DNA of 48,808 nt from Flavobacteriales bacterium (GTDB lineage: Bacteria > Bacteroidota > Bacteroidia > Flavobacteriales_D > Crocinitomicaceae). Every line of letters starts with the position of its first letter. Positions within the stretch are counted from its first letter, which is position 1. The translations under genes were made by a program, and so were the position numbers. The stretch is from contig CANJNE010000008.1 of the NCBI GenBank assembly GCA_947475275.1, forward strand, positions 1-48,808, read 5' to 3'. Shown piece after piece: positions 1 through 28,531 of the stretch. Below the pieces are notes generated by a model. It saw only the letters and a program-made list of their open reading frames with translations, searched no databases and was not told where the DNA came from.

Positions 1-756
1 CTTAATTCTATCATTTAGGATTTCACCCCATTCATGAAATATCACCTTGATTGGGTTGTTTGTTTTTATGTTTTTGGTAATTCCAAAGACAATTGGCTCT
101 TCTTTCTTCTCTTCGATGAAAGTACCGAACATCCTGTCAAAAATGATGAGCACATTTCCATAATTGTGATTGATGTATTCTGGATTCGAGGCATGATGAA
201 TTTTGTGATTTCGTGGGGTATTGAACCAAAACTCCATCCATCCCAAATGACCTATGAGTTTCGTGTGTTGAAAAACACCAAACAAAAAACCGATATTGGA
301 AACTGCAAATACCATGTAAGGATTAAATCCAAGCAAGATTAAAGGTGTCCAAAAAGTAATGTGGACAAGAATATTTAAAAAAGGAAGTCGAGCAGCAGTT
401 GTAAAGTTGAACAATTGGGAAGAGTGGTGATTAACATGAATCGCCCAAAGTATGCGCCACTCATGACTCAAACGATGGAACCAATAATAAACGAATTCAT
501 TAACAATAAAAAGTAAGATCCAAACAGGGATACTGTTCTGGAATTTCCAAATGGAGTATTGAGACAGATAAATCCATAATCCAAGCCATAATCCTTCAAA
601 AATAACGCGATTCAAAACGGCAAGAATTCCGAGTGAGATATTTAATACCGAGTCTTTTAAGTCGTATAGTTTTAATTGATGTTTGCGGTCATAGTTCACC
701 TCAAAAGCTATTGCTGCGGTGTATAAAATGATAAATATGACAAATGACAATGACAT
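1..756 (-). CDS. Sterol desaturase / fatty acid hydroxylase family protein (3' end outside window)
   Basis: Membrane-bound di-iron oxygenase of the fatty acid hydroxylase superfamily (PF04116 type). The frame reads from the ATG at 756 through 252 codons without a stop and leaves the window, so the C-terminus is missing. All three histidine clusters that hold the iron pair are visible: HRLSH at residues 94-98, HVNHH at 107-111 and HKIHH at 184-188. Hydrophobic stretches lie at about 3-19, 40-65, 75-93 and 125-163. Family members hydroxylate or desaturate sterols, carotenoids, ether lipids or fatty acyl chains; the substrate here cannot be read. It starts 4 bp after the stop of the alpha/beta-hydrolase and is the last visible gene of the operon that begins at 6818, so an acyl chain made by that operon is the likely substrate (inference). 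Confidence 0.9.
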   Translation of the reverse strand, partial: MSLSFVIFIILYTAAIAFEVNYDRKHQLKLYDLKDSVLNISLGILAVLNRVIFEGLWLGLWIYLSQYSIWKFQNSIPVWILLFIVNEFVYYWFHRLSHEWRILWAIHVNHHSSQLFNFTTAARLPFLNILVHITFWTPLILLGFNPYMVFAVSNIGFLFGVFQHTKLIGHLGWMEFWFNTPRNHKIHHASNPEYINHNYGNVLIIFDRMFGTFIEEKKEEPIVFGITKNIKTNNPIKVIFHEWGEILNDRIK

Positions 757-760
757 AAGA

Positions 761-1603
761 CTATGTTTTTGATAAGTAAGACGCAATAATATCGTTTACT
801 TTTTCAGGTTGTTCATACATGCACAAATGACCCGTGTTTTCTACGATTTCAAAGTTTTTGGTTTGAAGCAATTTGCGATGCACATTTCCGTGTCTTTTAA
901 GTAGCGTTACTTTGTTATGTCTGCTCCAAACCAATAGGTGTTCTGGTATCTCATAATCTTTTGTAATTAAATCCATGTTAAAGGTATGGACGGAAAAAAA
1001 CAAATTTACTCTGGATCGCGTGTGCTGAGGATCTTTCAATTTTGACAAATACCTTAGGAATAATGGTGTTTTGTTATCTACTTTTTTACCGAAAAGCACT
1101 TTAGGAAATTGCGTTTTAACAGGTGTTTTGGTGAATAAAAACGTGAAAAATCGTTCCAGAAATTTCTTGCGTTTAGGCTTGACATGCACAGAACTAATAA
1201 GATTTCTCAATGGCTTCAACGGAAAAATTAAACTTCCTGGACAAGGGTTGAAAAGAATGAGCTTTTTAATGTTTCTGTTTTTTTGAATTACATAATTCAA
1301 TGCAGCTGAAGCACCAATACAATTACCTATTAGTATGGGATTTTTCAATTCCAATTTTTCAATGAACTCCGCTAAAACTTGCGTCAACAATTCAAGTGAT
1401 ATCATTCCTTTCGGTGTTGATGATTTCCCGAAACCAGGCCAATCGATACCGAAAACCCGATAAGATTTTGAGAAATGCTCGATTTGATATTCCCAACTGT
1501 ACCAAAAACCACCGCCATTATGCAAAAATAGCATGGGCTCGCCCGAACCTGCTTCTACATAATTGATTGCTAAATCCGATATTTTGATATGCTGTTCTGT
1601 CAT
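761..1603 (-). CDS. Alpha/beta-hydrolase with Cys nucleophile
   Basis: A 280-residue alpha/beta-hydrolase fold protein of usual length with no signal peptide. The oxyanion segment HNGGG lies at 28-32, the nucleophile elbow GNCIG at 93-97 and the general base His259 in NTGHLC. Two catalytic positions are atypical: the nucleophile is Cys95 rather than Ser, and the usual acid position after strand 7 (LLVWSRHNKV) carries Asn230 instead of Asp. Cys at the elbow is known from PHA synthases and dienelactone hydrolase, so acyl transfer is as plausible as hydrolysis. Its ATG overlaps the sulfotransferase stop by 4 bp, indicating translational coupling. In olefin (Ole) clusters the comparable gene is oleB, but OleB uses Asp. 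Substrate unknown. Confidence 0.85.
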   Translation of the reverse strand: MTEQHIKISDLAINYVEAGSGEPMLFLHNGGGFWYSWEYQIEHFSKSYRVFGIDWPGFGKSSTPKGMISLELLTQVLAEFIEKLELKNPILIGNCIGASAALNYVIQKNRNIKKLILFNPCPGSLIFPLKPLRNLISSVHVKPKRKKFLERFFTFLFTKTPVKTQFPKVLFGKKVDNKTPLFLRYLSKLKDPQHTRSRVNLFFSVHTFNMDLITKDYEIPEHLLVWSRHNKVTLLKRHGNVHRKLLQTKNFEIVENTGHLCMYEQPEKVNDIIASYLSKT

Positions 1604-2742
1604 TTTTGAGACTTAGACGGTGAACAAAACGGTTTCAAAAAAGCCAATTCTTCAAGTATAGCTGCAGTTTCTTCTTCATTCAGTTTTTCATATGAACTTT
1701 TACTTTTATGACCAACTTTTTCTTTCCGTTCATCCATTTTGATTATTCCTTCTGGAAATTCAAGGAAATTTGAAATACGTTGCCATTCATTGGAATTGGT
1801 ATCGACTAAATCGTAAAAATTGATTTTAAGAAATTGGTTATTGTAATGCAAGTTCAAATTTTCTTCGGCCATTTTGTACCAGCTGATTAAAAGGCTTTTC
1901 GTTTCTTGTTTTACACGCTCATTTTGTGGAATAGACGTGAAAATGCCATACAATGAGTGTCCCAAGTGGATAGTTGAAGGAATCGTTTCTTTCGGATTGC
2001 GATTGATGTTGAGAATTTTAGCATCAGGAAAAATGCGACTTAAAGCACCAATTTTATTCATCATTAAAGGGTTCTTTGAAACGAAACGACGGCTGTTATT
2101 TCTATTGAAAACAAAGTTATGTCTTTGCACCAAACGGAAATACCTGTTCATTATTCTTTGCTTTCTTTTCTCAGGCATCGTGTCATCGAATTGTAAAAAT
2201 TCTTGAAAAAATTTCGAATCCGCATAGAAAAAGTTGAAGTAAAGTGTGGTCAGGTTCCAAACCAATAGTCCTTCATCTTCCTCTGGCATATTCAAACCTA
2301 TCAAATGAATGGTTTTTAATTTTCCGATCACCAAGTTTTCTAATCCTAGAATGATGCGTTTCAATGGAGCACCAATCAGCTTATCCAATTTGAATATTCC
2401 CCATATCAGATATTTCTGCAGAATTGAAGGCGCAAATACAATTTCCCAGAGTTTTACTGCGGTAAAGTGATCTCGATTATTAGCAAATGAATGGAAAAGA
2501 AAGGTTGTTCCACTTCGCGGTGCGGCAATGATAAAGACCGGATTTGAAATTTTTTGCCAAAAAAATCTAGGAAAGAAAATAAAATCCAGGGCAAGAAATA
2601 AATTGTTCATGAACAGCAGAGCAAGGAAAAGAGGACAAACGAGAATACAAACAACAATTCTTTTTAAATTGAACCATCGCATATTCTTCTTGTCAAAAGA
2701 AAATATTCCGAATAGGAATTGAAACAAAAGTTTTAACGTCAT
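1600..2742 (-). CDS. Membrane-anchored sulfotransferase family protein
   Basis: A 380-residue protein of the PAPS-dependent sulfotransferase superfamily (Sulfotransfer_3 type). The 5'-phosphosulfate-binding loop PRSGTTFLF is at 75-83. The 3'-phosphate-binding segment NINRNPKETIPS is at 245-256, with a basic GHKSKSS stretch near 344-350. A hydrophobic segment at about 28-58 precedes the catalytic domain and should anchor it at the inner membrane with the active site in the cytoplasm. Known relatives transfer sulfate from PAPS to hydroxyl groups of lipids, glycans or peptides. It lies 5 bp downstream of the KAS III gene and overlaps the hydrolase gene by 4 bp, so the acceptor is probably the lipid product of this operon (inference). 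PAPS-synthesis genes are not in the window. Confidence 0.85.
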   Translation of the reverse strand: MTLKLLFQFLFGIFSFDKKNMRWFNLKRIVVCILVCPLFLALLFMNNLFLALDFIFFPRFFWQKISNPVFIIAAPRSGTTFLFHSFANNRDHFTAVKLWEIVFAPSILQKYLIWGIFKLDKLIGAPLKRIILGLENLVIGKLKTIHLIGLNMPEEDEGLLVWNLTTLYFNFFYADSKFFQEFLQFDDTMPEKRKQRIMNRYFRLVQRHNFVFNRNNSRRFVSKNPLMMNKIGALSRIFPDAKILNINRNPKETIPSTIHLGHSLYGIFTSIPQNERVKQETKSLLISWYKMAEENLNLHYNNQFLKINFYDLVDTNSNEWQRISNFLEFPEGIIKMDERKEKVGHKSKSSYEKLNEEETAAILEELAFLKPFCSPSKSQK

Positions 2743-2747
2743 TCAGA

Positions 2748-3743
2748 TCAATACTTTAACAATACACTACCGATTGAAAATCCAGCCGATGTTCCACTAA
2801 GTAAACAAATATCGCCTCTTTTGATTTCATTTTTTTCAACTGCATCAATAAAAGTTAATGGTATGGAAGCTGCAATGCAGTTACCATATTTATAAAGCGT
2901 TACCTTCATTTGTTCTTGTCTCAATTTATAAAGTTTCGTAAATACGCCCATCCCCATTCTAGACGCTTGATGAGGAACGATGATGTCTGTAGTTGAAACA
3001 GTATAAGGCAGATCATCAAAAAACCAATCCATAAAATCGGGGATATAATGTTTAGCCATTTTTAATAACTTTCTGCCATTCATTTTAAAGGAATGCAGTT
3101 CTTGATTGTAAGCATGTTCTTTAAAAAAGAATTTATTTCCCCCACCTTCAATAATGGTATCGTAAACACCTTCAGAATAGGTGCGCTGACCTCCTTTGAT
3201 GAACTGTGAAGATTGATTTTCATCATAACTCAAAACCATCGCTGCAGCACCATCGCCAAATAGCGTAAGCGTTTCCCAGTTTTTCGGATTGATACCTTTT
3301 GAAGAAATCTCTGAGCTTACTATCAAAATATTCTTGTATGATTTGCCATCAAGCAATTTGGATGCGAAATCAAATGCAGCAACAAAACTTAGGCATGTGC
3401 TGTCAATATCGATTGCAGGAACATGGTATTTTTCTCCACCTTTCATTTTTGCTTTAATGATGCTTGCTTGATTCGGTAAGGGATAATCATAGGTGCCACT
3501 TCCCGAGATAATCATGTCCAAATCTGAAAGTTTCAGTCCTGCATCTTCAAGTGCAGCTTCTGCAGCTTTAGCACCCATAAATCCGTTGCACTCATGCGAA
3601 GCAATATGGCGTTGTTGTACACCGGAATATTTTTCAGACCAGCCTTTAGGAAGATTGAACTTGTTCTCCATTTCTTGTGAAGTAACCAAATTTGGGAGGT
3701 ATTTGCCCATCCCAACAATGCGTATTGGTTTAGATTGATTCAT
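2748..3743 (-). CDS. 3-oxoacyl-ACP synthase III family (KAS III / OleA-like) condensing enzyme
   Basis: A 331-residue thiolase-fold condensing enzyme. The complete KAS III triad is present: Cys117 in DSTCLSF, His258 in VPHQAS and Asn288 in YGNCIAAS. The C-terminal glycine loop LSGTSAGFSIG is at 315-325. FabH itself starts fatty acid synthesis from acetyl-CoA and malonyl-ACP, whereas OleA-type relatives join two acyl-CoAs head to head without decarboxylation. The setting among an adenylating enzyme, a reductase and a hydrolase, rather than among fab genes, argues for a dedicated secondary lipid role. The start at 3743 overlaps the upstream adenylating-enzyme gene by 14 bp. Choosing FabH-like or OleA-like chemistry needs a tree or a structure model. 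Confidence 0.88.
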   Translation of the reverse strand: MNQSKPIRIVGMGKYLPNLVTSQEMENKFNLPKGWSEKYSGVQQRHIASHECNGFMGAKAAEAALEDAGLKLSDLDMIISGSGTYDYPLPNQASIIKAKMKGGEKYHVPAIDIDSTCLSFVAAFDFASKLLDGKSYKNILIVSSEISSKGINPKNWETLTLFGDGAAAMVLSYDENQSSQFIKGGQRTYSEGVYDTIIEGGGNKFFFKEHAYNQELHSFKMNGRKLLKMAKHYIPDFMDWFFDDLPYTVSTTDIIVPHQASRMGMGVFTKLYKLRQEQMKVTLYKYGNCIAASIPLTFIDAVEKNEIKRGDICLLSGTSAGFSIGSVLLKY

Positions 3744-5004
3744 TTTTTATACGTCTAAGTTTTGATCCGCGTTCAAATGGGAGGTTTTCCAATCTGCTGA
3801 CTTGAACATCAAAACAGTTATTGAATTCGAGTAATTTTTGAATTTCATGCTGAGCTTTTAAAAAAAGATCTGAACTGCCATCAATGAATAAATTTAATTG
3901 TGACTTGCTTTTTTGAATGAGGATGTAATTATGAATGCCTGAATCGGCAAGAATAATTGCCCGGCGAAAAAAATCAGGATAAATGCTTATTTCGATCCTG
4001 TCTTTGTTTATAAAACAAAGTTTATCGTCAGATCTTCCTTCAATTTGAGCAATCGCTGTCGATTTTAATCCGCATGGACAGTTTTTTAATTCGTGAATGA
4101 TATCATTCAGTTCATATCGAACAACAGGTTGTGTTGAACGCATCAAATCTGTAATTATAGGATGAAAACGCGTTTGTTCTTCATCCAAATATTTTTTCTC
4201 AATGATTAAATAATCTTCATGAAAATGAAGGTTTCCTTCTTCGCAAGTGCTTGCCAAAAGTCCTTCTGTACATTGGTAAACTTGATGGATTTTCTGATTG
4301 AATATTTTTTCCAAATAACGTTTGTCTTCGGGGTACAGAACCTCTGCAACTGAGATTACTTTTTCAGGTTTGATTTGCAGCTGTTTTGATTCGATGTATT
4401 TGGCTAATTCAATCAGGCAACTTGGCTGCGCAACAAGGATATTGGGTTGAAGTTCAATTAAAGATTTGAGGTGTTTTTCAACAGGAATCAAAAGATCATA
4501 AAATTCAAATCGCAACAGTTTTGAAGCAACTGAATTGTATAAATTACTATTTGCCCTTAAGAAAAACGCCACTTTACGTTTTTTAAATTGGAATCCAATA
4601 ACACGATTGAGTACCGCAGCAACCCATTGCGCGCGTTCGTTATCAGATGCCAAAAACAGTCCTCGATTTCCGCTTGTGCCTGATGAAAGTCCAACTGTAA
4701 TTCCATTTATTGTTGGCGCAAAATCACGCGAATTTTCAGCTTCAAGTGCGATATGCATGGCATCTTCTAGTTCAATACCTGTGGTGTTTATTGATGTGAA
4801 ATTTTCCATGAACGCTTGCTTTTGCATTATTGGAAATTCCTTAAGCTTTTTGTCTGAAAATTTGTTGTAAAAAGGTGATTTGGAAAGTACTTTTTTGAAG
4901 TTCCTCCATCGTTTAGACTGAAGTGCGCCTATTTTTGAACCATAGCGAAAATGTGTCCATTTAAAGCGAACGAGATAACCAAGTATTTTTAATTTAAAGC
5001 GCAT
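3730..5004 (-). CDS. PaaK / coenzyme F390 synthetase-like adenylate-forming enzyme
   Basis: A 424-residue member of the ANL superfamily, in the phenylacetate-CoA ligase / F390 synthetase branch. The phosphate-binding loop SSGTSGN is at 108-113. QCTEG at 244-248 matches the adenine-binding region, followed by RYELND near 296-301 and the CPCG turn at 309-312 that precedes GRSDD at 323-327. Cys254, Cys309, Cys311 and nearby His261/His263 could form the zinc knuckle seen in some PaaK-like proteins (inference). It should activate a carboxylate as acyl-AMP and then form a thioester, amide or lactone. It overlaps the genes on both sides (11 bp and 14 bp). OleC, the ligase of olefin clusters, is a classical AMP-binding protein, so this would be a different solution to the same step. 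Confidence 0.82.
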   Translation of the reverse strand: MRFKLKILGYLVRFKWTHFRYGSKIGALQSKRWRNFKKVLSKSPFYNKFSDKKLKEFPIMQKQAFMENFTSINTTGIELEDAMHIALEAENSRDFAPTINGITVGLSSGTSGNRGLFLASDNERAQWVAAVLNRVIGFQFKKRKVAFFLRANSNLYNSVASKLLRFEFYDLLIPVEKHLKSLIELQPNILVAQPSCLIELAKYIESKQLQIKPEKVISVAEVLYPEDKRYLEKIFNQKIHQVYQCTEGLLASTCEEGNLHFHEDYLIIEKKYLDEEQTRFHPIITDLMRSTQPVVRYELNDIIHELKNCPCGLKSTAIAQIEGRSDDKLCFINKDRIEISIYPDFFRRAIILADSGIHNYILIQKSKSQLNLFIDGSSDLFLKAQHEIQKLLEFNNCFDVQVSRLENLPFERGSKLRRIKNESI

Positions 5005-5842
5005 GGAAATCTATTTTATCACTTACCAATTTATCAGTCGTTTGACTACAATGTGTTGGAACGAGTTTGACATCTGAATGCAATTGGTGAAAGGTATTTA
5101 ATTTCATAACCGTTGCTTTGAAGTCGCTCCAGGAATGAAAGAACAATCTCACAATGGGATTTGGTAAGTGCATTTTTCTATAGGTTTCTTCATTCCAACA
5201 AGCATCGGCGATGAGGAAATAGGATTGTTTTTGGGTTTCTAGTTTGACGCCAATTTGTCCGGCAGCATGTCCTGGAAGAGGAACAATAATTAGACTTTTA
5301 TCATGGAATATATCGTATGTTGTCCCAAATATTTCATCATTTTTCGGTTCGGAAATTTCTTCAACAAAAGCGATTCTTTTTTCTAAATCAGCTGGTAATA
5401 AATCCTTTAAAACTCCTTTAGTGAATGCCAATTTACTTTTGAGTTTTTTGGTGTAATGGTATGCCGTTGAAGAAGTGTAAATTGTTGCATTCGGAAAATC
5501 TAAAAGGCCACCAATGTGATCGGCATGAAAATGTGTGAGAATGATATGTTTTATCTCCTCAGGATCTATGCCATTTCGAAGCAATTGATTTTTTATCTCG
5601 TCCTCCTTTTTAATTTCAACCTTTGTGATTTTCGAATAGATGTTGTTTGGAAAACGTCGTGTTGCCTCATAAAATCTTCCGGTATATGCGGTGTCGTACA
5701 AAATCAAGCCTTTTTCCGGATGTTCAATCAAACCCCATAATGCGTGAAATTTGATGTTGCGCTTTTTACCGTTGCGTAATGCATGGTTTTCTTTTGCCCA
5801 ACAAAATCCGGCGTAATTGAGATGTAGCTTAGTTTTCCTCAT
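4994..5842 (-). CDS. Metallo-beta-lactamase-fold hydrolase
   Basis: A 282-residue MBL-fold protein with a complete dinuclear zinc site: HFHADH at 104-109, His192 in PGHAAGQ, Asp213 in IADACWN and His264 in PTHCSQ. It has no signal peptide and resembles the AHL-lactonase / glyoxalase II branch more than true beta-lactamases. I start it at the ATG at 5842; the frame stays open to a TTG at 5863, but the ATG gives a 14-bp overlap with the upstream reductase gene, matching the overlap style of this operon. Hydrolysis of a thioester or lactone intermediate of the pathway is the likely role (inference). Confidence 0.85.
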   Translation of the reverse strand: MRKTKLHLNYAGFCWAKENHALRNGKKRNIKFHALWGLIEHPEKGLILYDTAYTGRFYEATRRFPNNIYSKITKVEIKKEDEIKNQLLRNGIDPEEIKHIILTHFHADHIGGLLDFPNATIYTSSTAYHYTKKLKSKLAFTKGVLKDLLPADLEKRIAFVEEISEPKNDEIFGTTYDIFHDKSLIIVPLPGHAAGQIGVKLETQKQSYFLIADACWNEETYRKMHLPNPIVRLFFHSWSDFKATVMKLNTFHQLHSDVKLVPTHCSQTTDKLVSDKIDFHAL

Positions 5843-6818
5843 TATTTCTGTACCATTGAACAAACTCCATTATTGCCTCATCTGTACTCACCTTCGGAAC
5901 ATAACCAAGAAATTCCTTCGCCTTCGTAATATCCATAGTAAAAGACTTGGCTAGCGTACCAACACCATATACAGTCAAGGTTGGTTCTTTTTTATTTGTG
6001 ATTTGTGATTTCAATTCCATCACGCCTGCAATTGTTTTAACAATTCCGTAAGGGATTTTTTTATGGGTAAGTTGGCGATTCATTTCTGCCAGTACCAGGC
6101 TTATTTTGTCCCACAATACGACAGGTTCACCATTTGTAATATTGTAATGTTGTCTTAATGCTTGGTTTGGAGCATAAATTGAAAGCTGAATTGCATCAAC
6201 TACATTCTCAACAGAAGTTAAATCAACGATATTCTTGCCATCACCAATTATTCGGAGACGACCTTCATCAAAAGCGCGCACCAAGCGAGGCATGATTACC
6301 GTATCACCACGACCGGTTAAAGCTCTTGGTCTTAATGAGATGAAATCCAAGTTTGATTGTTCCAATTCCATTTCTGCCATTCGTTTGGTTTTGGCATATT
6401 CATTAATGAACCGATGGGGCAGAGGATCGCTTTCCTTGATGTTGAAACGGTCTTTTCCATTAAAGTACATACTTGGCGTGGAAATATAAATGAATCGTTT
6501 TACACCATTCAATTCGGCGAAATGAATCAAATTTTGAATGCTTTTTACATTTGCTGAATGAAACATATCGTAACTTCCCCATGGAGAAGAAAGTGCAGCT
6601 GCATGAATAATCGCATCAACGCCAGAAACGATTTTTGCAACAAATTCTTTATCTGCTAGATCTCCGAGTTCGTAACTCACTTTTGGATCAAAAATATGAT
6701 GGGTGGGTTTGATGGTTCTACCCGTTGCCGTAATTTTATCAATTCCTTGATTTGCAATGAGTTTTTCCAAGGTTCTAAATCCCAAAAATCCTGTAGCTCC
6801 GGTTAATAGTATGTGCAC
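5829..6818 (-). CDS. NAD(P)-dependent epimerase/dehydratase (3-beta-HSD / OleD-like reductase)
   Basis: First gene of the lipid-type operon. It is a 329-residue extended short-chain dehydrogenase. The nucleotide-binding GATGFLG is at 7-13 directly after the first strand, the catalytic Tyr/Lys pair YAKTK at 141-145, and Ser113/Ser116 in ISTPS. The start codon is GTG at 6818; the Rossmann strand follows at once, so a later start would destroy the fold. Relatives include 3-beta-hydroxysteroid dehydrogenases and OleD, which reduces a 2-alkyl-3-oxo acid. Reduction of the keto group left by the KAS III of this operon is therefore the simplest reading (inference). A possible promoter lies at 6838-6868. 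Confidence 0.85.
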   Translation of the reverse strand: MHILLTGATGFLGFRTLEKLIANQGIDKITATGRTIKPTHHIFDPKVSYELGDLADKEFVAKIVSGVDAIIHAAALSSPWGSYDMFHSANVKSIQNLIHFAELNGVKRFIYISTPSMYFNGKDRFNIKESDPLPHRFINEYAKTKRMAEMELEQSNLDFISLRPRALTGRGDTVIMPRLVRAFDEGRLRIIGDGKNIVDLTSVENVVDAIQLSIYAPNQALRQHYNITNGEPVVLWDKISLVLAEMNRQLTHKKIPYGIVKTIAGVMELKSQITNKKEPTLTVYGVGTLAKSFTMDITKAKEFLGYVPKVSTDEAIMEFVQWYRNNEEN

Positions 6819-6837
6819 TGACTTCGCTTTAGTTTGG

Positions 6838-6868
6838 TAAATATAAACTTAATGGGCAAGGAACTAAA
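6838..6868 (-). promoter_or_regulatory. Possible promoter of the lipid-type operon
   Basis: On the minus strand TATATTTA (6845-6838) lies 19 nt downstream of TTTA (6868-6865). This is one mismatch in each box from the Bacteroidota pattern TTTG-N19-TAnnTTTG. The -7 box ends 19 nt before the GTG at 6818, a distance shared with other candidate promoters in this window. Confidence 0.4.
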
Positions 6869-17223: not shown

Positions 17224-17592
17224 ATGAATACAGGAAGTGTTGATTATTTACCGATTCTCCTCCAAATTGCTTTTATAGGTGGTTTCGTTTCTTTCGTGCT
17301 TGTAATCACTCATTATTTAGGGCCAAGATTAAAATCAAAGAAAAAAGATGCCAACTGGGAGTGCGGTATTGAGTCAGATGGTGATGCAAGGTTTCCTGTT
17401 TCGATTCGGTATTTCATGACCGCGATTCTTTTTGTACTCTTTGATGTTGAGGTTATATTTTTCTATCCATACGCAGTGAATTTTAAAGCACTTGAACTAG
17501 AAGGACTTTTAGCTGTTGTATTATTTGTAGCCTTATTTTTAACGGGCTTTTTCTATGTACTGAAAAAAGGAGCATTAGAATGGGAAAAATAG
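17224..17592 (+). CDS. nuoA: NADH-quinone oxidoreductase subunit A
   Basis: First gene of a 14-gene complex I operon. The 122-residue membrane subunit has three hydrophobic helices (about 9-31, 61-83, 93-114). The conserved loop WECGIESDGDARFPVSIRYF lies between helices 1 and 2, with the Cys that sits near the quinone cavity. An acidic DVEVIFFYPYA segment is in helix 2. It helps seat the quinone channel with NuoH, NuoJ and NuoK. The gene overlaps nuoB by 13 bp. Confidence 0.96.
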   Translation: MNTGSVDYLPILLQIAFIGGFVSFVLVITHYLGPRLKSKKKDANWECGIESDGDARFPVSIRYFMTAILFVLFDVEVIFFYPYAVNFKALELEGLLAVVLFVALFLTGFFYVLKKGALEWEK

Positions 17593-18125
17593 AAGATTTA
17601 CAAGTTATTAATGGTGAAGGATATCAGCTGGGGCGCCTAGAGAAAGTAGTTGCTGCTGCCAGAGCAAATTCAGTTTGGCCTTTACCTTTCGCAACATCTT
17701 GCTGTGGTATTGAATATATGGCAACGATGGGAAGTAATTACGATTTGGCTAGATTTGGAATGGAACGTATGTCGTTTTCTCCGCGTCAAGCTGATTTATT
17801 AATCGTAGCAGGAACAATTTCTAAAAAATTAGGTCCAATCTTAAAACAGGTATACGAGCAAATGGCAGAACCGAAATGGGTTTTATCTGTAGGTGCATGT
17901 GCATCTTCTGGAGGGATTTTCGACACCTACAGCGTTTTGCAAGGTATTGATAGAGTCATTCCAGTTGACGTTTATGTGCCTGGATGCCCACCTCGACCTG
18001 AACAAATTATTGATGGAATCATGAAGATTCACGATATGGTTAGAAATGAACCTTTGAGAAGAAGGTATTCTGATGAATACAAATCACTGCTCAATAAATA
18101 CGAAATCGAAGGAAATGAAGAATAG
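17580..18125 (+). CDS. nuoB: NADH-quinone oxidoreductase subunit B
   Basis: The 181-residue NuoB carries cluster N2, the last iron-sulfur centre before quinone. Its ligands are the tandem Cys pair in TSCCGIEYMA (about 38-39), the Cys in GACASSGG (about 103) and the Cys in VPGCPPRPE (about 133). The length is normal. It starts inside the end of nuoA, and nuoC begins inside its last codons, so translation of the three is coupled. Cytoplasmic arm, bound to NuoCD and NuoI. Confidence 0.97.
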   Translation: MGKIEDLQVINGEGYQLGRLEKVVAAARANSVWPLPFATSCCGIEYMATMGSNYDLARFGMERMSFSPRQADLLIVAGTISKKLGPILKQVYEQMAEPKWVLSVGACASSGGIFDTYSVLQGIDRVIPVDVYVPGCPPRPEQIIDGIMKIHDMVRNEPLRRRYSDEYKSLLNKYEIEGNEE

Positions 18126-18624
18126 TTTAACAAATGATGCTGTTCTTCAGCAATTGAAATCGGAATTTGGTGAAGCTATAATGTCTTCAGAGAACCCATT
18201 CGATTTATTAACTGTGGAAGTGGAGACCTCTAAATGTAAAGACATTATTGGATGGTTGAAAACAAATCCTGAATTGCAAATAAATTATCTTACCAACATC
18301 GGAGCTGTTCATTATCCTGATTTAAGAGGTCGTGAATTGGCAATGGTTTATCATATTCATAGTTTGGTGAATAACTTCAGAATTCGCTTAAAAGCATTCC
18401 TTTCAATTGATAGACCCGAAATTGATTCTATTGTGGATTTATATGCAGGTGCTAATTGGATGGAACGTGAGACATTTGATTTTTACGGAGTAATTTTCAA
18501 TGGGCATCCCAATTTAAAACGTATTCTGAATGAAGATAGCATGGATTATTTTCCGCTTCGTAAAGAATACCATCTAGAAGATGCTACACGTGAGGATAAA
18601 GACGATAGATTTTTTGGAAGATAA
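18115..18624 (+). CDS. nuoC: NADH-quinone oxidoreductase subunit C (30 kDa)
   Basis: The 169-residue peripheral-arm subunit carries the 30-kDa signature: ERETFDFYGVIFNGHPNLKR and DYFPLRKEY near the C-terminus. It is a separate gene rather than fused to nuoD as in enterobacteria. The frame is open back to 18073, deep inside nuoB, but the ATG at 18115 gives the family N-terminus with an 11-bp overlap. It has no cofactor; it scaffolds NuoB and NuoD. Confidence 0.95.
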   Translation: MKNSLTNDAVLQQLKSEFGEAIMSSENPFDLLTVEVETSKCKDIIGWLKTNPELQINYLTNIGAVHYPDLRGRELAMVYHIHSLVNNFRIRLKAFLSIDRPEIDSIVDLYAGANWMERETFDFYGVIFNGHPNLKRILNEDSMDYFPLRKEYHLEDATREDKDDRFFGR

Positions 18625-18636
18625 ATAGTTGAAAAA

Positions 18637-19866
18637 ATGACGAATCTAGAAAATAATACTGCTGCTAATTCTTCTGAGTTTTTGTCTGACGAAACCATCG
18701 ATGGAACGATTACCACATTGAATTTAGGACCTACGCATCCAGCAACTCACGGCATATTTCAAAATGTATTGAAAGTTGATGGAGAAAAAATCCTTTCATC
18801 TGAACAAACTGTGGGTTATATTCACCGTGCTTTTGAAAAACTAGCAGAAAGAAGACCTTACAATCAAATTACGCCAATAACGGATCGTTTAAACTATTGT
18901 TCGTCCCCAATCAACAACATGGGATGGCACATGACAGTAGAAAAATTAATTCAAGCTGATATTCCAAAAAGAGCGCAATACATGAGAGTAATTATCATGG
19001 AATTGGCAAGAATTGCAGATCACTTGGTTTGTAATTCGGTAATTGGAGTTGATACCGGTGCGCTTACTGGTTTTACATATGTATTTCAAGAAAGAGAAAA
19101 AATATACGACCTTTATGAGGAAGTATGTGGTGCCCGTTTGACAACCAATGTTGGGAGAATTGGAGGATTTGAAAGAGATTTTTCACCTCGTTTTCATGAA
19201 AAATTGAAAGACTTTTTAAAGACTTTCCCGAAAGTTTTAAATGAATTTGATAGCCTACTATCGAGAAATAGAATTTTCATGGACAGAACCATCGGAGCCG
19301 GACCTATTTCAGCTCAACGTGCATTGGATTATTCCTTTTCTGGACCAAATCTAAGAGCAGCCGGTGTAGATTATGATGTTCGTGTAATGAATCCATATTC
19401 TTCTTATGAAGATTTCGATTTTATAATTCCCGTGGGAACGCAAGGAGACACTTACGATCGTTTTCAAGTTCGTCAGGAAGAAATCAGACAGAGTTTAAAG
19501 ATAATAGAACAAGCATACAACAATTTACCTGAAGGATCCTATAAAGGCGATGTTCCTGAATTTTATCTTCCTCCAAAAGATGATGTTTATAACAATATGG
19601 AGGCACTTATTTACCACTTTAAAATTGTAATGGGTGAAACAGCCATTCCTGCAGGCGAAGTTTATCATGCAGTGGAAGGTGGAAATGGAGAATTGGGTTA
19701 TTATCTGATTTCTGATGGTGGTAGATCGCCATATAGACTTCAATTTAGAAGACCTTGTTTCATATATTATCAAGCTTATCCAGAAATGATTACAGGTCAA
19801 AATATCAGTGACGCTGTTTTGACCATGAGTAGTATGAACGTAATAGCAGGAGAATTAGACGCATAA
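18637..19866 (+). CDS. nuoD: NADH-quinone oxidoreductase subunit D (49 kDa)
   Basis: The 409-residue NuoD is the quinone-site subunit related to the large subunit of NiFe hydrogenases. The loop with the quinone-headgroup His is seen in GPTHPATHG (about 31-39). MGWHMTVEKL and the C-terminal EGGNGELGYYLISDGG and RLQFRRPCF are characteristic. The N-terminal 25 residues are a variable leader. It lies 12 bp after nuoC. Together with NuoB it forms the quinone-reduction pocket at the membrane surface. Confidence 0.96.
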   Translation: MTNLENNTAANSSEFLSDETIDGTITTLNLGPTHPATHGIFQNVLKVDGEKILSSEQTVGYIHRAFEKLAERRPYNQITPITDRLNYCSSPINNMGWHMTVEKLIQADIPKRAQYMRVIIMELARIADHLVCNSVIGVDTGALTGFTYVFQEREKIYDLYEEVCGARLTTNVGRIGGFERDFSPRFHEKLKDFLKTFPKVLNEFDSLLSRNRIFMDRTIGAGPISAQRALDYSFSGPNLRAAGVDYDVRVMNPYSSYEDFDFIIPVGTQGDTYDRFQVRQEEIRQSLKIIEQAYNNLPEGSYKGDVPEFYLPPKDDVYNNMEALIYHFKIVMGETAIPAGEVYHAVEGGNGELGYYLISDGGRSPYRLQFRRPCFIYYQAYPEMITGQNISDAVLTMSSMNVIAGELDA

Positions 19867-19868
19867 TC

Positions 19869-20408
19869 ATGAGTAATACACACATTGATTTAAATAAAAG
19901 GCATTCTGAAAAACCGGAATTCAGTCCGGAAAGAATGGCGCAGGTTAAAGAATTGATGAATAGATTGCCAGAAGGCAAGCATAAAAGTGCATTGATTCGC
20001 ATTTTGCACATGGCTGAAGAAGATTTTGGTGGATGGCTAAGTATCGAGACAATGGATTATGTTGCTGAAATATTAAATATTCAGCCAATAGAAGTTTATG
20101 AAGTAGCTACTTTCTACACCATGTTTAACCTTGACCCTGTTGGTAAGTATGTTTTTGAAGTTTGTAGAACAGGACCATGCATGCTCGTTGGAAGTGATCA
20201 AATCATAGAATACATTGAGAACAAATTGGATATTAAAGTTGGTCAAACAACATCCGACGGAATGTTTACATTGAAAACTGCTGAATGTCTTGGTGCTTGT
20301 GGATATGCTCCAATGTTGCAGTGTGGTAAAAAATACCATGAGCATCTCACAAAAGAGCGCGTGGATGAAATTATTAACACTTACCGTTCTGGTCAAGTAC
20401 CTAATTGA
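19869..20408 (+). CDS. nuoE: NADH-quinone oxidoreductase subunit E (24 kDa)
   Basis: The 179-residue thioredoxin-like-fold subunit carries the N1a [2Fe-2S] cluster. The four ligands are visible as the pair in CRTGPC (about 99-104) and in CLGACGYAP (about 140-144). It partners NuoF in the NADH-oxidising tip. Its start is 2 bp after nuoD, and its TGA shares a base with the nuoF ATG. Confidence 0.96.
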   Translation: MSNTHIDLNKRHSEKPEFSPERMAQVKELMNRLPEGKHKSALIRILHMAEEDFGGWLSIETMDYVAEILNIQPIEVYEVATFYTMFNLDPVGKYVFEVCRTGPCMLVGSDQIIEYIENKLDIKVGQTTSDGMFTLKTAECLGACGYAPMLQCGKKYHEHLTKERVDEIINTYRSGQVPN

Positions 20409-21757
20409 TGAGTAAGATGGGAAGAAAATTATTATTAGAATACGATCACGTTCCAGGAATTGAAACTTTCGATGTTTATCGAAAAAATGGAGGCTACCGG
20501 TCTGTTGAAAAAGCATTGAAATCAATGTCTCCTGAACAAATTGTTGAGGAAGTTCAAAAATCAGGATTAAGAGGTAGAGGTGGAGCAGGTTTTCCAACTG
20601 GGATGAAATGGTCGTTTTTAGCGAAACCAGAAGGTGTTCCGCGTTATTTGTTATGTAATGCAGATGAATCCGAACCTGGAACTTTCAAGGACAGATATTT
20701 AATGGAACGTATTCCGCATCTTTTGATAGAAGGGATGATTGTTTCCAGTTTTGCTTTAGGAGCCAAATTGTCTTTCATTTATATCCGAGGTGAATACATG
20801 TGGATTCTCGATATTCTTGAGAAGGCTATTGATGAAGCTTATGCTAACGGTTTTCTTGGTAAAAACATCTTAGGATCCGGTTTCGATTTGGATTTAAGAG
20901 TAATGCCAGGCGGTGGAGCATACATTTGTGGAGAAGAAACTGCTTTAATTGAATCTTTAGAAGGGAAGAGAGGTAATCCACGTATGAAGCCACCTTTTCC
21001 TGCAGTTAAAGGATTGTGGGGGTGCCCAACTGTTGTGAATAATGTTGAAAGTATTGCTGCTGTAGTTCCTATTGTGAACGATGGCGGGGATGAATATGCT
21101 AAAATCGGCCTTGGAAAAAGTACCGGTACCAAATTGATTTCTGCTGGAGGTAATCTTGTTCGCCCGGGCGTTTATGAAATCGAAATGGGTATTACCGTTG
21201 AGGAATTTATTTACGGTGATGATTATTGTCGTGGCATCGCAAACAATAAAAAGTTGAAAGCTTGTGTTCCTGGTGGTTCATCCGTTCCGATTCTTCCGGC
21301 GCATTTGGTTACTAAAACTGCAACAGGAGAAGATCGTTTGATGACCTATGAAAGTCTTGCTGATGGAGGTTTTGCTTCGGGATCCATGTTGGGTTCTGGT
21401 GGATTTATTGCATTTGATGAAGACCAGTGTATTGTTCGTAACACATGGAATTTTGCTCGATTCTATTCGCATGAATCTTGTGGCCAATGTTCACCATGTA
21501 GAGAAGGAACGGGTTGGATGGAAAAAGTACTACACAGACTTGAAATCGGTCAGGGAACTATGCGTGACATAGATTTATTGGCTGACATAAATAAAAAGAT
21601 TGAAGGTAATACAATTTGTCCCCTTGGGGATGCAGCAGCATGGCCAGTAGCAGCTGCAATTCGACATTTTAGAGAAGAATTTGAATGGCATGTTACACAT
21701 CCGGAAGAAGCGCAAATGCGCAACTTTGGATTGTTGAAAAATGTAATTGTTGCCTAA
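20408..21757 (+). CDS. nuoF: NADH-quinone oxidoreductase subunit F (51 kDa)
   Basis: The 449-residue subunit binds NADH, FMN and cluster N3. The nucleotide-binding GRGGAGFPTG is at 56-65 and the FMN region AYICGEETALIESLEG near 172-187. N3 ligands are Cys358, Cys361 and Cys364 in CGQCSPC plus Cys404 in ICPLGD. The start is the ATG at 20408, joined to nuoE as TGATG; the in-frame TTG just before it is not needed. It is the electron entry point of the complex. Confidence 0.97.
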   Translation: MSKMGRKLLLEYDHVPGIETFDVYRKNGGYRSVEKALKSMSPEQIVEEVQKSGLRGRGGAGFPTGMKWSFLAKPEGVPRYLLCNADESEPGTFKDRYLMERIPHLLIEGMIVSSFALGAKLSFIYIRGEYMWILDILEKAIDEAYANGFLGKNILGSGFDLDLRVMPGGGAYICGEETALIESLEGKRGNPRMKPPFPAVKGLWGCPTVVNNVESIAAVVPIVNDGGDEYAKIGLGKSTGTKLISAGGNLVRPGVYEIEMGITVEEFIYGDDYCRGIANNKKLKACVPGGSSVPILPAHLVTKTATGEDRLMTYESLADGGFASGSMLGSGGFIAFDEDQCIVRNTWNFARFYSHESCGQCSPCREGTGWMEKVLHRLEIGQGTMRDIDLLADINKKIEGNTICPLGDAAAWPVAAAIRHFREEFEWHVTHPEEAQMRNFGLLKNVIVA

Positions 21758-21775
21758 ATTTAAAAATTAACGAAT

Positions 21776-22747
21776 ATGGTAAAGGTTACCATTGATGATG
21801 TACAGATTGAGGTAGAACCGGGAACATCGATTCTCAACGCCGCCAGACAAATTGGTGGTGAGGTTGTTCCGCCTGCAATGTGTTATTACAGTAAACTTCC
21901 AGGGACTGGAGGTAAATGTCGTACCTGTTTGGTTGAAGTTGCTCAGGGTTCAGAAAAAGACCCGAGACCAATGCCGAAATTAGTGGCGTCATGTTCCACT
22001 CCCGTTATGGATGGGATGGTCGTAAAAAATAAAACAAGTGAAAGGGTTCACGAAAATCGCGGAGGTGTAGTTGAGTTCTTATTGATTAACCATCCATTAG
22101 ATTGTCCAATTTGTGACCAAGCCGGAGAATGTCATCTTCAGGATTTGGGATACGAACATGGTGCTGCCGGAACACGTTACGAGGAAGAACGAAGAACTTT
22201 TGATCCAATCGATATTGGAAATAAAATCAAGTTGCACATGAACCGCTGTATTTTGTGTTACAGATGTGTTCATATAGCCAATCAGTTGACAGACAAAAGA
22301 GTTCATGGCGTTTTGCATAGAGGCGAGCATGCTGAAATAAGCACTTACATCGAAAATGCAATTGATAATGATTTCTCGGGTAACATGATTGATGTATGTC
22401 CTGTTGGAGCATTAACAGATAAAACATTCCGATTTAAAAGTCGTGTATGGTTTTTAAAACCAATGGAAGCAAGTTGTGAATGTACAAAGTGCTCCGGTAA
22501 AGCTGTTGTCTGGATGTTTGGAAATGAAATTTACCGCGTAACTGCTAGAAAAGATAAATACGGAGAAGTTGAAGATCAAGATGGTAAAACAGGCTGGATT
22601 TGCAATGACTGTCGCTTCGATAAAAAAGATGTCTCCAAATGGAATATTGAAGGTCCAAGAAAGATTAACAGACATTCTGTTATTTCTCAAGGTCAGTATT
22701 TAAGTCCAAGGTCAAACGCTAAACAAATTACAGATGGCAACCAGTGA
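21776..22747 (+). CDS. nuoG: NADH-quinone oxidoreductase subunit G, short form
   Basis: The 323-residue product holds only the N-terminal, cluster-bearing part of NuoG. Ligand sets seen: Cys36, 48, 51 and 73 (N1b, 2Fe-2S); His106 with Cys110, 113 and 119 (N5); Cys158, 161, 164 and 208 (N4). A further CECTKC (234-239) with CNDC (276-279) resembles the start of the molybdopterin-oxidoreductase domain and could hold a fourth (N7-like) cluster. The remaining several hundred residues of the usual NuoG are absent, and nuoH begins inside its 3' end by 14 bp, so this is a natural short form, not a frameshift. Confidence 0.93.
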   Translation: MVKVTIDDVQIEVEPGTSILNAARQIGGEVVPPAMCYYSKLPGTGGKCRTCLVEVAQGSEKDPRPMPKLVASCSTPVMDGMVVKNKTSERVHENRGGVVEFLLINHPLDCPICDQAGECHLQDLGYEHGAAGTRYEEERRTFDPIDIGNKIKLHMNRCILCYRCVHIANQLTDKRVHGVLHRGEHAEISTYIENAIDNDFSGNMIDVCPVGALTDKTFRFKSRVWFLKPMEASCECTKCSGKAVVWMFGNEIYRVTARKDKYGEVEDQDGKTGWICNDCRFDKKDVSKWNIEGPRKINRHSVISQGQYLSPRSNAKQITDGNQ

Positions 22748-23765
22748 ATTTATTGAAAAGTTTGTTTTCATCTTTATCCTTTTTGCGGTAACCTTGGGGA
22801 TTGCGGCTTACGCAACTTATTTCGAACGTAAGGTAGCCGCTTGGTTTCAAGATCGAATAGGTCCAGATAGAGCAGGGCCATTTGGTATATTGCAGCCTTT
22901 GGCAGATGGCGCTAAGTTGTTTGTTAAAGAAGATTTTATTCCAGAAAGAGCGGAAAAATGGCTCTTCATTTTAGGTCCTGGAATCGCAATGTTTACAGCT
23001 TTGATGACGGGCTCTGTAATTCCTTGGGGAAAAGACTTAGATCTATTCGGACAGTCAATACAATTACAAGTAGCTGATGTAAATATTGGAATTTTATTTA
23101 TTATGGGATTCTTGTCAATTGGTGTATATGGTATCATGATTGGCGGTTGGGCATCTAATAATAAGTATTCTTTATACGGAGCTATTCGGGCAAGCTCACA
23201 AATGATTTCCTATGAGTTAGCTATGGGAATTTGTGTAATTACCATCGTAATGCTTTCTGGAAGTTTAAGTTTGAGAAATATCGTTGAAGAACAGCATGGC
23301 ATGAATTGGAATATTTTCTATCAGCCTCTGGGGTTCATCATATTTTTTGTTTGTGCCCTTGCTGAAACCAATCGCGCACCTTTCGATTTACCTGAATGTG
23401 AAAGTGAATTAATTGGTGGATATCATACAGAGTATGGATCTATGAAAATGGGATTCTACCTGTTTGCTGAATACGTTGCATTATTTACGTCATCTGCAGT
23501 TATTTCAGTACTGTTTTTCGGTGGTTACAACTTCCCAGGAATGGATTACTTTTCAGGGAATACGCTTGCTATTCTTGGTGTTTTAGCAATGTTTACCAAA
23601 ACGTTTTTCTTCGTATTCGTATTCATGTGGATACGTTGGACATTACCAAGATTTAGATTCGATCAATTGATGCACTTGGGTTGGAAAAGTTTAATTCCAA
23701 TTTCATTATTCAACTTGTTGATCACAGCAATAATAATAGCAATTAAAGAAGGTTGGTTTCATTAA
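22734..23765 (+). CDS. nuoH: NADH-quinone oxidoreductase subunit H
   Basis: The 343-residue eight-helix membrane subunit connects the peripheral arm to the proton pumps. The quinone-cavity loop ETNRAPFDLPECESELIGG is followed by YHTEYGSMKMG. The first loop AAWFQDRIGPDRAGPFG is also a family signature. It starts within nuoG (14 bp overlap) with an ATG, and nuoI follows after 8 bp. Confidence 0.97.
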   Translation: MATSEFIEKFVFIFILFAVTLGIAAYATYFERKVAAWFQDRIGPDRAGPFGILQPLADGAKLFVKEDFIPERAEKWLFILGPGIAMFTALMTGSVIPWGKDLDLFGQSIQLQVADVNIGILFIMGFLSIGVYGIMIGGWASNNKYSLYGAIRASSQMISYELAMGICVITIVMLSGSLSLRNIVEEQHGMNWNIFYQPLGFIIFFVCALAETNRAPFDLPECESELIGGYHTEYGSMKMGFYLFAEYVALFTSSAVISVLFFGGYNFPGMDYFSGNTLAILGVLAMFTKTFFFVFVFMWIRWTLPRFRFDQLMHLGWKSLIPISLFNLLITAIIIAIKEGWFH

Positions 23766-23773
23766 ATTAAAAC

Positions 23774-24316
23774 ATGGAAAGTTTATCCAATAGAAAGCAG
23801 GTTGTTTCCAAAAAAGAAATGACGTTCATGGAAAAAATCTATCTACCGGCTATTTTAGGTGGTATGTGGATTACTTTCAAACATCTTTTCAGAAAGAATA
23901 ATACAACTAAATATCCTGAGGAAGTTAGAGAATTTGCTCCAGTATACAGAGGTCAACATGTCTTAAAAAGAGATGAACAAGGTCGCGAAAATTGCACAGC
24001 TTGTGGATTGTGCGCAGTTGCCTGTCCTGCAGAAGCAATTACAATGGTTGCTGAAGAAAGAGTTAAGGGCGAGGAGCACCTTTATCGCGAGGAAAAATAT
24101 GCTTCAACTTATGAAATAAACATGTTGCGTTGCATTTTCTGCGGTCTTTGTGAAGAGGCTTGCCCAAAAGAAGCAATATTCCTTACTGATAGAATTGTTC
24201 CTTCAAATTTTGAAAGAGGTGAGTTCATTTACGGTAAAGACCAATTGGTGGAGACAATGGAAGAAAGAATTGATATCACCAAACGACAACATACAGGTAA
24301 AAGAGGTAAAAAATGA
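23774..24316 (+). CDS. nuoI: NADH-quinone oxidoreductase subunit I
   Basis: The 180-residue ferredoxin-like subunit carries clusters N6a and N6b. The two 8-Cys motif halves are CTACGLCAVACP (about 74-85) and CIFCGLCEEACP (about 119-130). The N-terminal amphipathic part, MEKIYLPAILGGMWITFKHL, lies on the membrane. It passes electrons from NuoG to NuoB. Its end overlaps nuoJ by 4 bp (ATGA). Confidence 0.97.
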   Translation: MESLSNRKQVVSKKEMTFMEKIYLPAILGGMWITFKHLFRKNNTTKYPEEVREFAPVYRGQHVLKRDEQGRENCTACGLCAVACPAEAITMVAEERVKGEEHLYREEKYASTYEINMLRCIFCGLCEEACPKEAIFLTDRIVPSNFERGEFIYGKDQLVETMEERIDITKRQHTGKRGKK

Positions 24317-24825
24317 GTTTAGAATTAATAGCTACAATTTTAGGTGGACTCACAATCGGATCTGCCTTGATGGTTGTCATCAGTAAGCACCCTGTTAGAA
24401 GCGTGTTGTATTTGGTTTTGACCTTTTTCATGATTTCTGCAAATTATGTACTAATGAACGCCCAATTTTTGGCAATCGTCAACATCATAGTATATGCCGG
24501 AGCTATCATGGTATTGTTTTTATTCGTTTTAATGCTCCTTAATTTGAGTAAAGAAAATGAACCCAAAACAAATTTATTTATCAAATTAGCTTCAGTGGTT
24601 ACTGGCGGACTTTTGTTTGTTGTGCTAATTGCAGCATTTAAAGATGGGGTAATCGTTGCACAAACTCCTGGCATAGATGGAAATGATCAAGGTTTAGTTC
24701 AAAATCTAGGTCAGCTTTTGTTTAGCAAATATGTTGTTCCTTTTGAAGTTTCTTCAGTTCTCTTTATCGCTTCAATGGTTGGAGCAATTCTTTTAGCAAA
24801 AAGAGAAAAACAAACTATAGATTAA
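24313..24825 (+). CDS. nuoJ: NADH-quinone oxidoreductase subunit J
   Basis: The 170-residue membrane subunit has five hydrophobic helices. The conserved helix-3 region reads VNIIVYAGAIMVLFLFVLML (about 56-75), whose pi-bulge is thought to rotate during coupling. It ends in a charged KREKQTID tail. It starts with a 4-bp overlap with nuoI, and nuoK begins 1 bp after its stop. Confidence 0.95.
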   Translation: MSLELIATILGGLTIGSALMVVISKHPVRSVLYLVLTFFMISANYVLMNAQFLAIVNIIVYAGAIMVLFLFVLMLLNLSKENEPKTNLFIKLASVVTGGLLFVVLIAAFKDGVIVAQTPGIDGNDQGLVQNLGQLLFSKYVVPFEVSSVLFIASMVGAILLAKREKQTID

Positions 24826-24826
24826 T

Positions 24827-25162
24827 ATGATTCTAGCAAGTATTTTTCAATCTGGTGTAAGTATCGAATTTTACATTGTTCTTGCAACAATGTTATTCTG
24901 TATTGGTGCTGTTGGTGTTTTAATAAGACGAAACGCAATTATTTTATTGATGTGCATTGAATTGATGTTGAATGCAGTAAACCTTCTTCTAGTGGCATTC
25001 TCTACCTACTTCGGAAAAGCAGAAGCCGATGCGCAGATTTTTGTCTTTTTCATAATGGTGGTTGCAGCAGCAGAAGCAACAGTTGGTTTATCGATTTTGG
25101 TAATGGCTTACCGTAAATTGAGAACAACAGATATTGGATTATTTAACAATTTAAAAGGCTAA
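24827..25162 (+). CDS. nuoK: NADH-quinone oxidoreductase subunit K
   Basis: The 111-residue, three-helix subunit is homologous to MrpC. The buried helix-2 Glu lies in LLMCIELMLNAVNL, and a second Glu is in helix 3 (AAAEATVGLSILV); both belong to the proton path. The length is normal for the family, with a slightly long N-terminus (ILASIFQSGVSIEFY). Confidence 0.95.
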   Translation: MILASIFQSGVSIEFYIVLATMLFCIGAVGVLIRRNAIILLMCIELMLNAVNLLLVAFSTYFGKAEADAQIFVFFIMVVAAAEATVGLSILVMAYRKLRTTDIGLFNNLKG

Positions 25163-25165
25163 ATC

Positions 25166-27085: not shown

Positions 27086-27088
27086 ATT

Positions 27089-28528: not shown

Positions 28529-28531
28529 AAT

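Follow-up and report, generated by a model that had tools for sequence, protein, structure and literature searches.

A sulfotransferase-bearing operon of a Flavobacteriales bacterium combines a putative lipid-biosynthesis core found across phyla with a lineage-specific tail

We analyzed a 48,808-nucleotide stretch (the window) of the genome of a Flavobacteriales bacterium of the family Crocinitomicaceae (assembly GCA_947475275.1, contig CANJNE010000008.1, forward strand). Positions 1-6818 carry seven minus-strand genes encoding a short-chain dehydrogenase/reductase (SDR), a metallo-beta-lactamase-fold (MBL) hydrolase, an adenylate-forming ligase, a beta-ketoacyl-acyl carrier protein (ACP) synthase III (KAS III), a sulfotransferase that uses 3'-phosphoadenosine 5'-phosphosulfate (PAPS), an alpha/beta-hydrolase, and an FA_hydroxylase. 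In order of transcription they are:

5829..6818, minus strand: core gene 1, extended SDR (3beta-HSD/OleD-like reductase), GTG start; PF01370, PF01073
4994..5842, minus strand: core gene 2, MBL-fold hydrolase resembling acyl-homoserine lactone (AHL) lactonases, proposed thioesterase or lactonase; PF00753
3730..5004, minus strand: core gene 3, adenylate-forming ligase, TIGR02304 "F390 synthetase-related"; 426 bits
2748..3743, minus strand: core gene 4, KAS III-type ketosynthase, nearest solved proteins MxnB and CorB; PF08541/PF08545
1600..2742, minus strand: tail gene 1, membrane-anchored PAPS sulfotransferase (Sulfotransfer_3); PF13469, 1.2e-20
761..1603, minus strand: tail gene 2, Cys-nucleophile alpha/beta-hydrolase-fold protein (hydrolase or acyltransferase); PF00561
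1..756, minus strand: tail gene 3, membrane di-iron hydroxylase/desaturase (FA_hydroxylase), truncated at the contig edge; PF04116, 9.7e-28

The MBL start was taken as the ATG at 5842, within a longer TTG open reading frame (ORF) to 5863 (289 aa, to which the MBL residue numbers below refer), and the FA_hydroxylase start as the ATG at 756, within a TTG ORF to 786. With these two ATG starts, the one-strand, seven-gene operon of the preliminary description, with overlaps of 14, 11, 14, and 4 bp and gaps of 5 and 4 bp, is exact, and its family assignments are confirmed by Pfam and NCBIfam; the block had been drawn to 6868, and its last gene boundary lies at 6818. Window base 1 is the end of contig C8 (the genome comprises 2.68 Mb in 183 contigs and is 95% complete), so the FA_hydroxylase is short of a few residues and any genes past the edge are out of sight. 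The truncation is small, as a 254-residue homologue at locus L035 aligns to residue 260 of 262. The GC content of the operon (35.9%) is close to that of the remainder of the window (35.7%).

As judged by sequence comparison, the seven genes are not a single unit: the SDR, MBL, TIGR02304 ligase, and KAS III genes form a core that is kept as one block across phyla, and the other three form a lineage-specific tail. The preliminary description overlooked this widespread core and is incomplete in that respect. The core block was identified in Bacteroidota, Fusobacterium, Bacillota, and alpha-, beta-, and gammaproteobacteria. The order SDR-MBL-ligase-KAS III occurs in Bacteroidota and Fusobacterium, and the order KAS III-(ATP-grasp)-SDR-MBL-ligase in Pontibacillus, Paenibacillus, Paracoccus, Ketogulonicigenium, Rhizobium, Paraburkholderia, Pseudomonas sp. 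FeN3W, and Escherichia coli. Rather than breaking up in relatives, the four-gene set is conserved well beyond them, and the recurrence of the first four genes as a block places the operon far beyond chance and supports a real, co-inherited unit. Pairwise distances of the four core proteins across 25 loci correlate with r of 0.86-0.91, versus a permutation maximum of 0.40 (n=500), indicating that the four have traveled together.

The TIGR02304 ligase has a patchy distribution: at E below 1e-60, and counting the source genome itself, it was detected in 5 of 150 genomes of the family, 24 of 399 of the order, and 6 of 395 in a sample of the phylum. No other genome of the same genus passed this threshold in the samples searched. 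Where present, the ligase nearly always adjoins the same three partners; the exceptions seen are P. amygdali, whose ligase stands alone, and Pseudomonas sp. Leaf58, where ligase and MBL are paired and the SDR lies farther off. A second ligase copy, TIGR02304-like but diverged (27-30% identity), was observed in three genomes of a single Bacteroidota genus (L039, L041, and L043); it is solitary, has a conserved neighborhood of its own, and occurs in addition to the full core. A ligase scan of the genome contigs returned one locus, apparently G590:C43 by gene content, and TIGR02304-like matches near E 1e-11 in the same genus were set aside, as they look like other PaaK-type ligases.

The catalytic residues of the core enzymes are invariant or nearly so across 26-28 loci from several phyla, indicating selection on these proteins as enzymes. 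They include the nucleotide-binding motif TGxxGxLG with S113, Y141, and K145 in the SDR (26 sequences); H111, H113, D115, H116, H199, D220, and H271 in the MBL protein (26/26), where the metal site is intact; GxSxGTSG, E247, D301, GRxDD, and K415 in the ligase (28 sequences); and C117, H258, and N288 in KAS III (28/28). The best NCBIfam match of the SDR is OleD (NF042422; 1.2e-56, 192 bits versus a cut-off of 580) and that of the MBL protein is the AttM lactonase (81 bits versus a cut-off of 390). The ligase is a true member of TIGR02304, at 426 bits versus a curated cut-off of 252 over residues 4-420; a Pfam search gave no match to it, AMP-binding included.

The KAS III is most similar among solved proteins to MxnB (4v2p, 208 bits) and CorB (4yuc, 205 bits), ahead of every FabH (144 bits) and far ahead of OleA (about 50 bits) in the PDB search. 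MxnB and CorB are 28-40% identical to the cluster KAS III proteins and about 35% identical to the window protein. A glutamate contributed by the partner subunit removes a proton from the first chain in OleA and PpyS; at the PpyS position, MxnB and CorB have V94 (PMC4578411). We located V94 in the alignment as the valine 27 residues before C121, the MxnB catalytic cysteine (PMC5724707). At this column (MxnB V94, PpyS E105) the window protein has Leu89, and all 28 cluster proteins have Leu or Ile, so this test places the KAS III outside the Ole and PpyS types. We rejected a PpyS/PyrS head-to-head pyrone synthase on the replacement of this conserved glutamate (E105). Identity as the housekeeping FabH was also rejected, since a second, FabH-like KAS III occurs on contig C37 (PHQAN motif; 47% identity to Aquifex FabH and 21% to the window protein), and the window protein has PHQAS and GNCIAAS where FabH has PHQAN and GNT. 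The concern that this KAS III might be the sole, housekeeping copy in the genome is thereby removed.

Among the 22 Flavobacteriales genomes with a readable flank, 20 have a homologous sulfotransferase as the next or next-but-one gene after KAS III. Of the two exceptions, no sulfotransferase was seen in G052, and G093 has a distant one on the other side of the core. Membership of the PAPS-dependent Sulfotransfer_3 family is supported by 5' and 3' PAPS motifs, the Pfam match (1.2e-20), and the fold. The PAPS-site residues PR..TT (PRSGTT), R248, and S256 are invariant in 17 aligned sulfotransferases, which also conserve an N-terminal hydrophobic segment, modeled as a long helix (residues 26-56). 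The predicted structure matches STF1/STF9, TPST, and the sulfotransferase (ST) domains of CurM and Ols; no solved sequence relative was found, and there was no match to the CurM or Ols ST (4gbm, 4gox) even at E 10. The genome itself encodes an adenosine 5'-phosphosulfate (APS) kinase (6.6e-63), and in another genome (G028, locus L019) the APS kinase gene overlaps the sulfotransferase gene. Three Rhodobacterales plasmids carry a divergently oriented sulfotransferase gene beside the core, with a TetR regulator; in the two of three tested, the protein has no significant similarity to that of the window, and the pairing is apparently an independent association. In Paracoccus alcaliphilus, sulfate-uptake genes come next. 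Sulfation as part of the operon in Flavobacteriales is well supported.

The remaining tail genes are less constant. The alpha/beta-hydrolase carries the nucleophile motif GNCIG (Cys95), bearing out the earlier view that it is Cys-based: C95 and H259 are invariant in five homologues, as is Asn230 near the usual acid position, and structure comparison of the model confirmed the fold. A Cys nucleophile would suit acyl transfer as well as hydrolysis. The protein occurs only in some genomes and is missing from most sulfotransferase-bearing clusters. The CurM thioesterase was not among the 50 fold matches listed for it, no comparison having been aimed at that domain. The tail order sulfotransferase-Cys-hydrolase-FA_hydroxylase recurs exactly in one other genus (G175; 49%, 49%, and 59% identity), and the sulfotransferase-hydrolase pair recurs in G739 and G767. 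The FA_hydroxylase is 59% identical to the gene at the matching place in L035 and has weak NCBIfam similarity to OlsE. PF00487 desaturases, PF04116 hydroxylases, and a Cupin_8/JmjC-type protein also recur as partners. The last of these is probably an Fe/2-oxoglutarate oxygenase and was observed next to the cluster in f3, a Crocinitomicaceae-like family, and in f9 (L091 3408-4403, L095 10987-11982, L100 2128-3135, L092 5200-6213, and L101 5372-6496). Desaturase homologues are encoded elsewhere in the source genome (31% and 29%).

In E. coli, the core belongs to a seven-gene cluster, KAS III-SDR-MBL-ligase-PAP2-sterol desaturase family-acyl-CoA desaturase, located between narI and tyrosine tRNA genes in a urinary isolate. 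The cluster is present in 672 of 5,426 complete genomes (about 12%, or one in eight), 671 of them with at least 80% of its length, and the carriers listed include O25b:H4-ST131 strains. Its hydroxylase is 40-42% identical to those of the Flavobacteriales genomes G052, G172, and G634, and the window hydroxylase is a shorter, more distant member of this family. Its desaturase is about 30% identical to three from Flavobacteriales (E 3e-44 to 1e-47). E. coli and Flavobacteriales therefore share six proteins, not four, and the hydroxylation partners proposed earlier can be recognized in genes that recur beside the core in both groups. The E. coli cluster (L044 7191-14072; L105 2451-9332) starts about 110 bp after narI, despite encoding members of oxygen-dependent desaturase and hydroxylase families.

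Genes that may finish the product differ by lineage. Flavobacteriales have a sulfotransferase with hydroxylases, and Rhodobacterales a sulfotransferase from a different subfamily; Bacillota, Rhizobiales, and Burkholderiales have ATP-grasp and GNAT proteins, and E. coli lineages, ST131 among them, have PAP2 together with a desaturase and a hydroxylase. We consider it reasonably probable that the core quartet represents an undescribed cross-phylum class of lipid pathway, in which one scaffold is finished differently in each lineage. ATP-grasp (PF02655, PRK06849-like) and/or GNAT/Acetyltransf_6 genes were observed flanking the core in L045, L050, L055, L036, L051, and L057, which belong to Bacillota, Burkholderiales, Rhizobiales, and one Bacteroidota genome; these flanks suggest an amide-forming variant of the pathway.

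For the window, we favor, with moderate confidence, a lipid biosynthesis cluster in which the Flavobacteriales tail oxygenates and sulfates the product of the core, yielding a hydroxylated sulfate-ester lipid. From the chemistry of its family, the ligase is predicted to activate a carboxylic acid, probably a fatty acid. KAS III may create a new C-C bond to yield a beta-ketoacyl thioester, using either malonyl-ACP or, as MxnB does, a second beta-ketoacyl chain. The MBL enzyme would release an acid or open a lactone, and the SDR would reduce the ketone. The substrates of OleD-like reductases are free beta-keto acids; on that basis MBL would come before SDR, with the ligase either first, for loading, or last, for activation before transfer. 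The membrane di-iron enzymes may desaturate or hydroxylate the chain, and the membrane-anchored sulfotransferase would transfer SO3 from PAPS onto a hydroxyl. The Cys-hydrolase could release or transfer the acyl group, and the predicted end product is an anionic sulfate-ester lipid. The best reading of this product is a desaturated or hydroxylated, O-sulfated beta-hydroxyacyl lipid, both structure and step order being deduced from the gene content. Of the sulfated, previously undescribed lipid predicted in the preliminary description, the sulfation and the undescribed lipid are probably right, and the equivalence to Ole is wrong.

Several observations weigh against this interpretation. The cluster has no known product or enzyme activity, and since the core lacks a carrier protein the proposed substrates are guesses. 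The sulfotransferase is missing outside Flavobacteriales and Rhodobacterales, and the core stands without it in the five other Bacteroidota genomes examined; sulfation is therefore not what the core is for. Sulfotransfer_3 members act on many kinds of substrate, and we infer a lipid acceptor from genomic context and the membrane helix. APS kinase appeared to track the sulfotransferase cleanly in 11 core genomes, and the pattern weakened with 39 more: the gene is also common in relatives without the core, and in most sulfotransferase-bearing genomes of family f9 it is weakly matched, with none found in three. Given this weak tracking, APS kinase is taken as permission for PAPS supply, not as proof of sulfation.

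Among the alternatives, KAS III may join two beta-ketoacyl thioesters into an alpha-pyrone or related ring, to be reduced and decorated by the other enzymes. MxnB and CorB lead all other solved structures by 60 bits, have an identical CLSF motif, and likewise miss the catalytic glutamate. However, they fall outside the 28-member cluster clade at 28-40% identity, no polyketide synthase (PKS) here supplies beta-ketoacyl chains, and a lone reductase is better suited to a hydroxyacyl product, so this route seems unlikely.

The preliminary description had assigned the operon the same four roles as OleABCD. In such a pathway, KAS III would join two acyl chains head to head, MBL would free a 2-alkyl-3-keto acid, the SDR would reduce it, and the ligase would close a beta-lactone that is later opened or sulfated. 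In favor of it, the operon does encode a thiolase-fold enzyme, a reductase, and an adenylating enzyme that are inherited together, and OleD is the best curated match of the SDR. That match is the only demonstrable Ole likeness, and it falls 388 bits under the OleD cut-off. The analogy fails at the other steps: Leu or Ile replaces the OleA/PpyS glutamate in 28/28 proteins (for its role, see PMC4578411), and the ligase is of the PaaK/F390 type, not OleC-type. OleB has an Asp nucleophile. The window hydrolase has Cys in its place, is not OleB-like, lies outside the core, and is absent from most clusters. We regard an Ole-type pathway as improbable.

Equally doubtful is a split-enzyme version of Ols or CurM, in which a fatty acid, once loaded by the ligase, is extended by two carbons through KAS III, the SDR forms a 3-hydroxyacyl chain, and sulfation followed by hydrolase-triggered decarboxylative loss of sulfate, here a leaving group and not part of the product, gives a terminal alkene: every Ols function (ligase, ketosynthase, ketoreductase, ST, hydrolase) has a counterpart in the window, the sulfotransferase is coupled to KAS III in 20/22 Flavobacteriales, and the CurM and Ols ST domains are among its ten best fold matches, but STF1/STF9 match better, neither ST domain matches in sequence, the Cys-hydrolase is missing from most sulfotransferase clusters, E. 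coli and other carriers have the core without a sulfotransferase, and there is no homology to the Ols megasynthase.

A few further features were observed around these loci. In G028 (L019 7574-8563), KAS III appears as two ORFs of 154 and 170 aa, the rest of the cluster being intact; either the gene is broken or the assembly is in error. In G093 (L033 12498-17569), the genes immediately upstream of the core encode an FkbH-N-domain protein, the distant sulfotransferase, a 477-aa protein without a Pfam match, and a Cys-hydrolase homologue. A radical SAM protein is encoded near the cluster in three genomes (L019 11635-12786, L034 13829-14995, and L088 1268-2464), with 45% identity between two of them; in one, the gene directly precedes the SDR. 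Elsewhere in the window, positions 17224-29917 hold an ordinary operon with NADH dehydrogenase (complex I) subunits, and SecDF is encoded at 39787-42792. With such housekeeping genes around it, the operon sits in an otherwise normal chromosome region.

We found no description of the core, of TIGR02304/PRK07204, or of the E. coli cluster in the literature searched, which left out most subscription papers and preprints, so that novelty is not proven; nor did the same literature hold anything relevant on sulfated lipids in Bacteroidota or on ST131 with a desaturase. If the favored sulfate-ester lipid pathway is correct, a lipid or polyketide-like pathway is shared by environmental Bacteroidota and about 12% of complete E. 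coli genomes, ST131 included, and a specific class of sulfate-ester lipids is predicted in Flavobacteriales. The clusters would also test the role of an MxnB-like KAS III outside antibiotic synthases, and they would place TIGR02304, so far named on similarity alone, in a functional context for the first time.

The enzyme families of the operon are known ones, but their arrangement corresponds to none of the described cluster types tested. Taken singly, the MBL protein falls below the cut-off for AHL lactonases (AiiA/AttM); the ligase belongs to the TIGR02304/PaaK branch and not among the OleC-type AMP-binding beta-lactone synthetases, and it is a true member of TIGR02304, a family whose name stands for no tested function. 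The KAS III has in common with MxnB and CorB the Cys-His-Asn triad, the CLSF active-site motif, and a hydrophobic residue for the PpyS glutamate, but MxnB and CorB branch outside the cluster clade in the tree, and the window protein lacks a PKS context. Like OleABCD, the operon joins a thiolase-fold condenser, a 3beta-HSD-type reductase (an OleD homologue), and an adenylating enzyme; unlike it, the operon has neither the OleA glutamate nor an OleB-type Asp hydrolase, its ligase is of a different family, and it adds the MBL, sulfotransferase, and di-iron enzymes. Like the window, Ols and CurM modules bring together the functions of a ligase, a ketosynthase, a ketoreductase, a PAPS sulfotransferase, and a hydrolase, whereas those of the window are separate, unrelated proteins without a carrier protein or acyltransferase domain; the hydrolase is Cys-based or MBL-fold and the sulfotransferase is not a sequence relative. 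The E. coli narI-tyrT cluster has the four core proteins, the hydroxylase, and the desaturase in common with the Flavobacteriales clusters, and differs in having a PAP2 phosphatase, in lacking a sulfotransferase, and in placing KAS III first instead of after the ligase.

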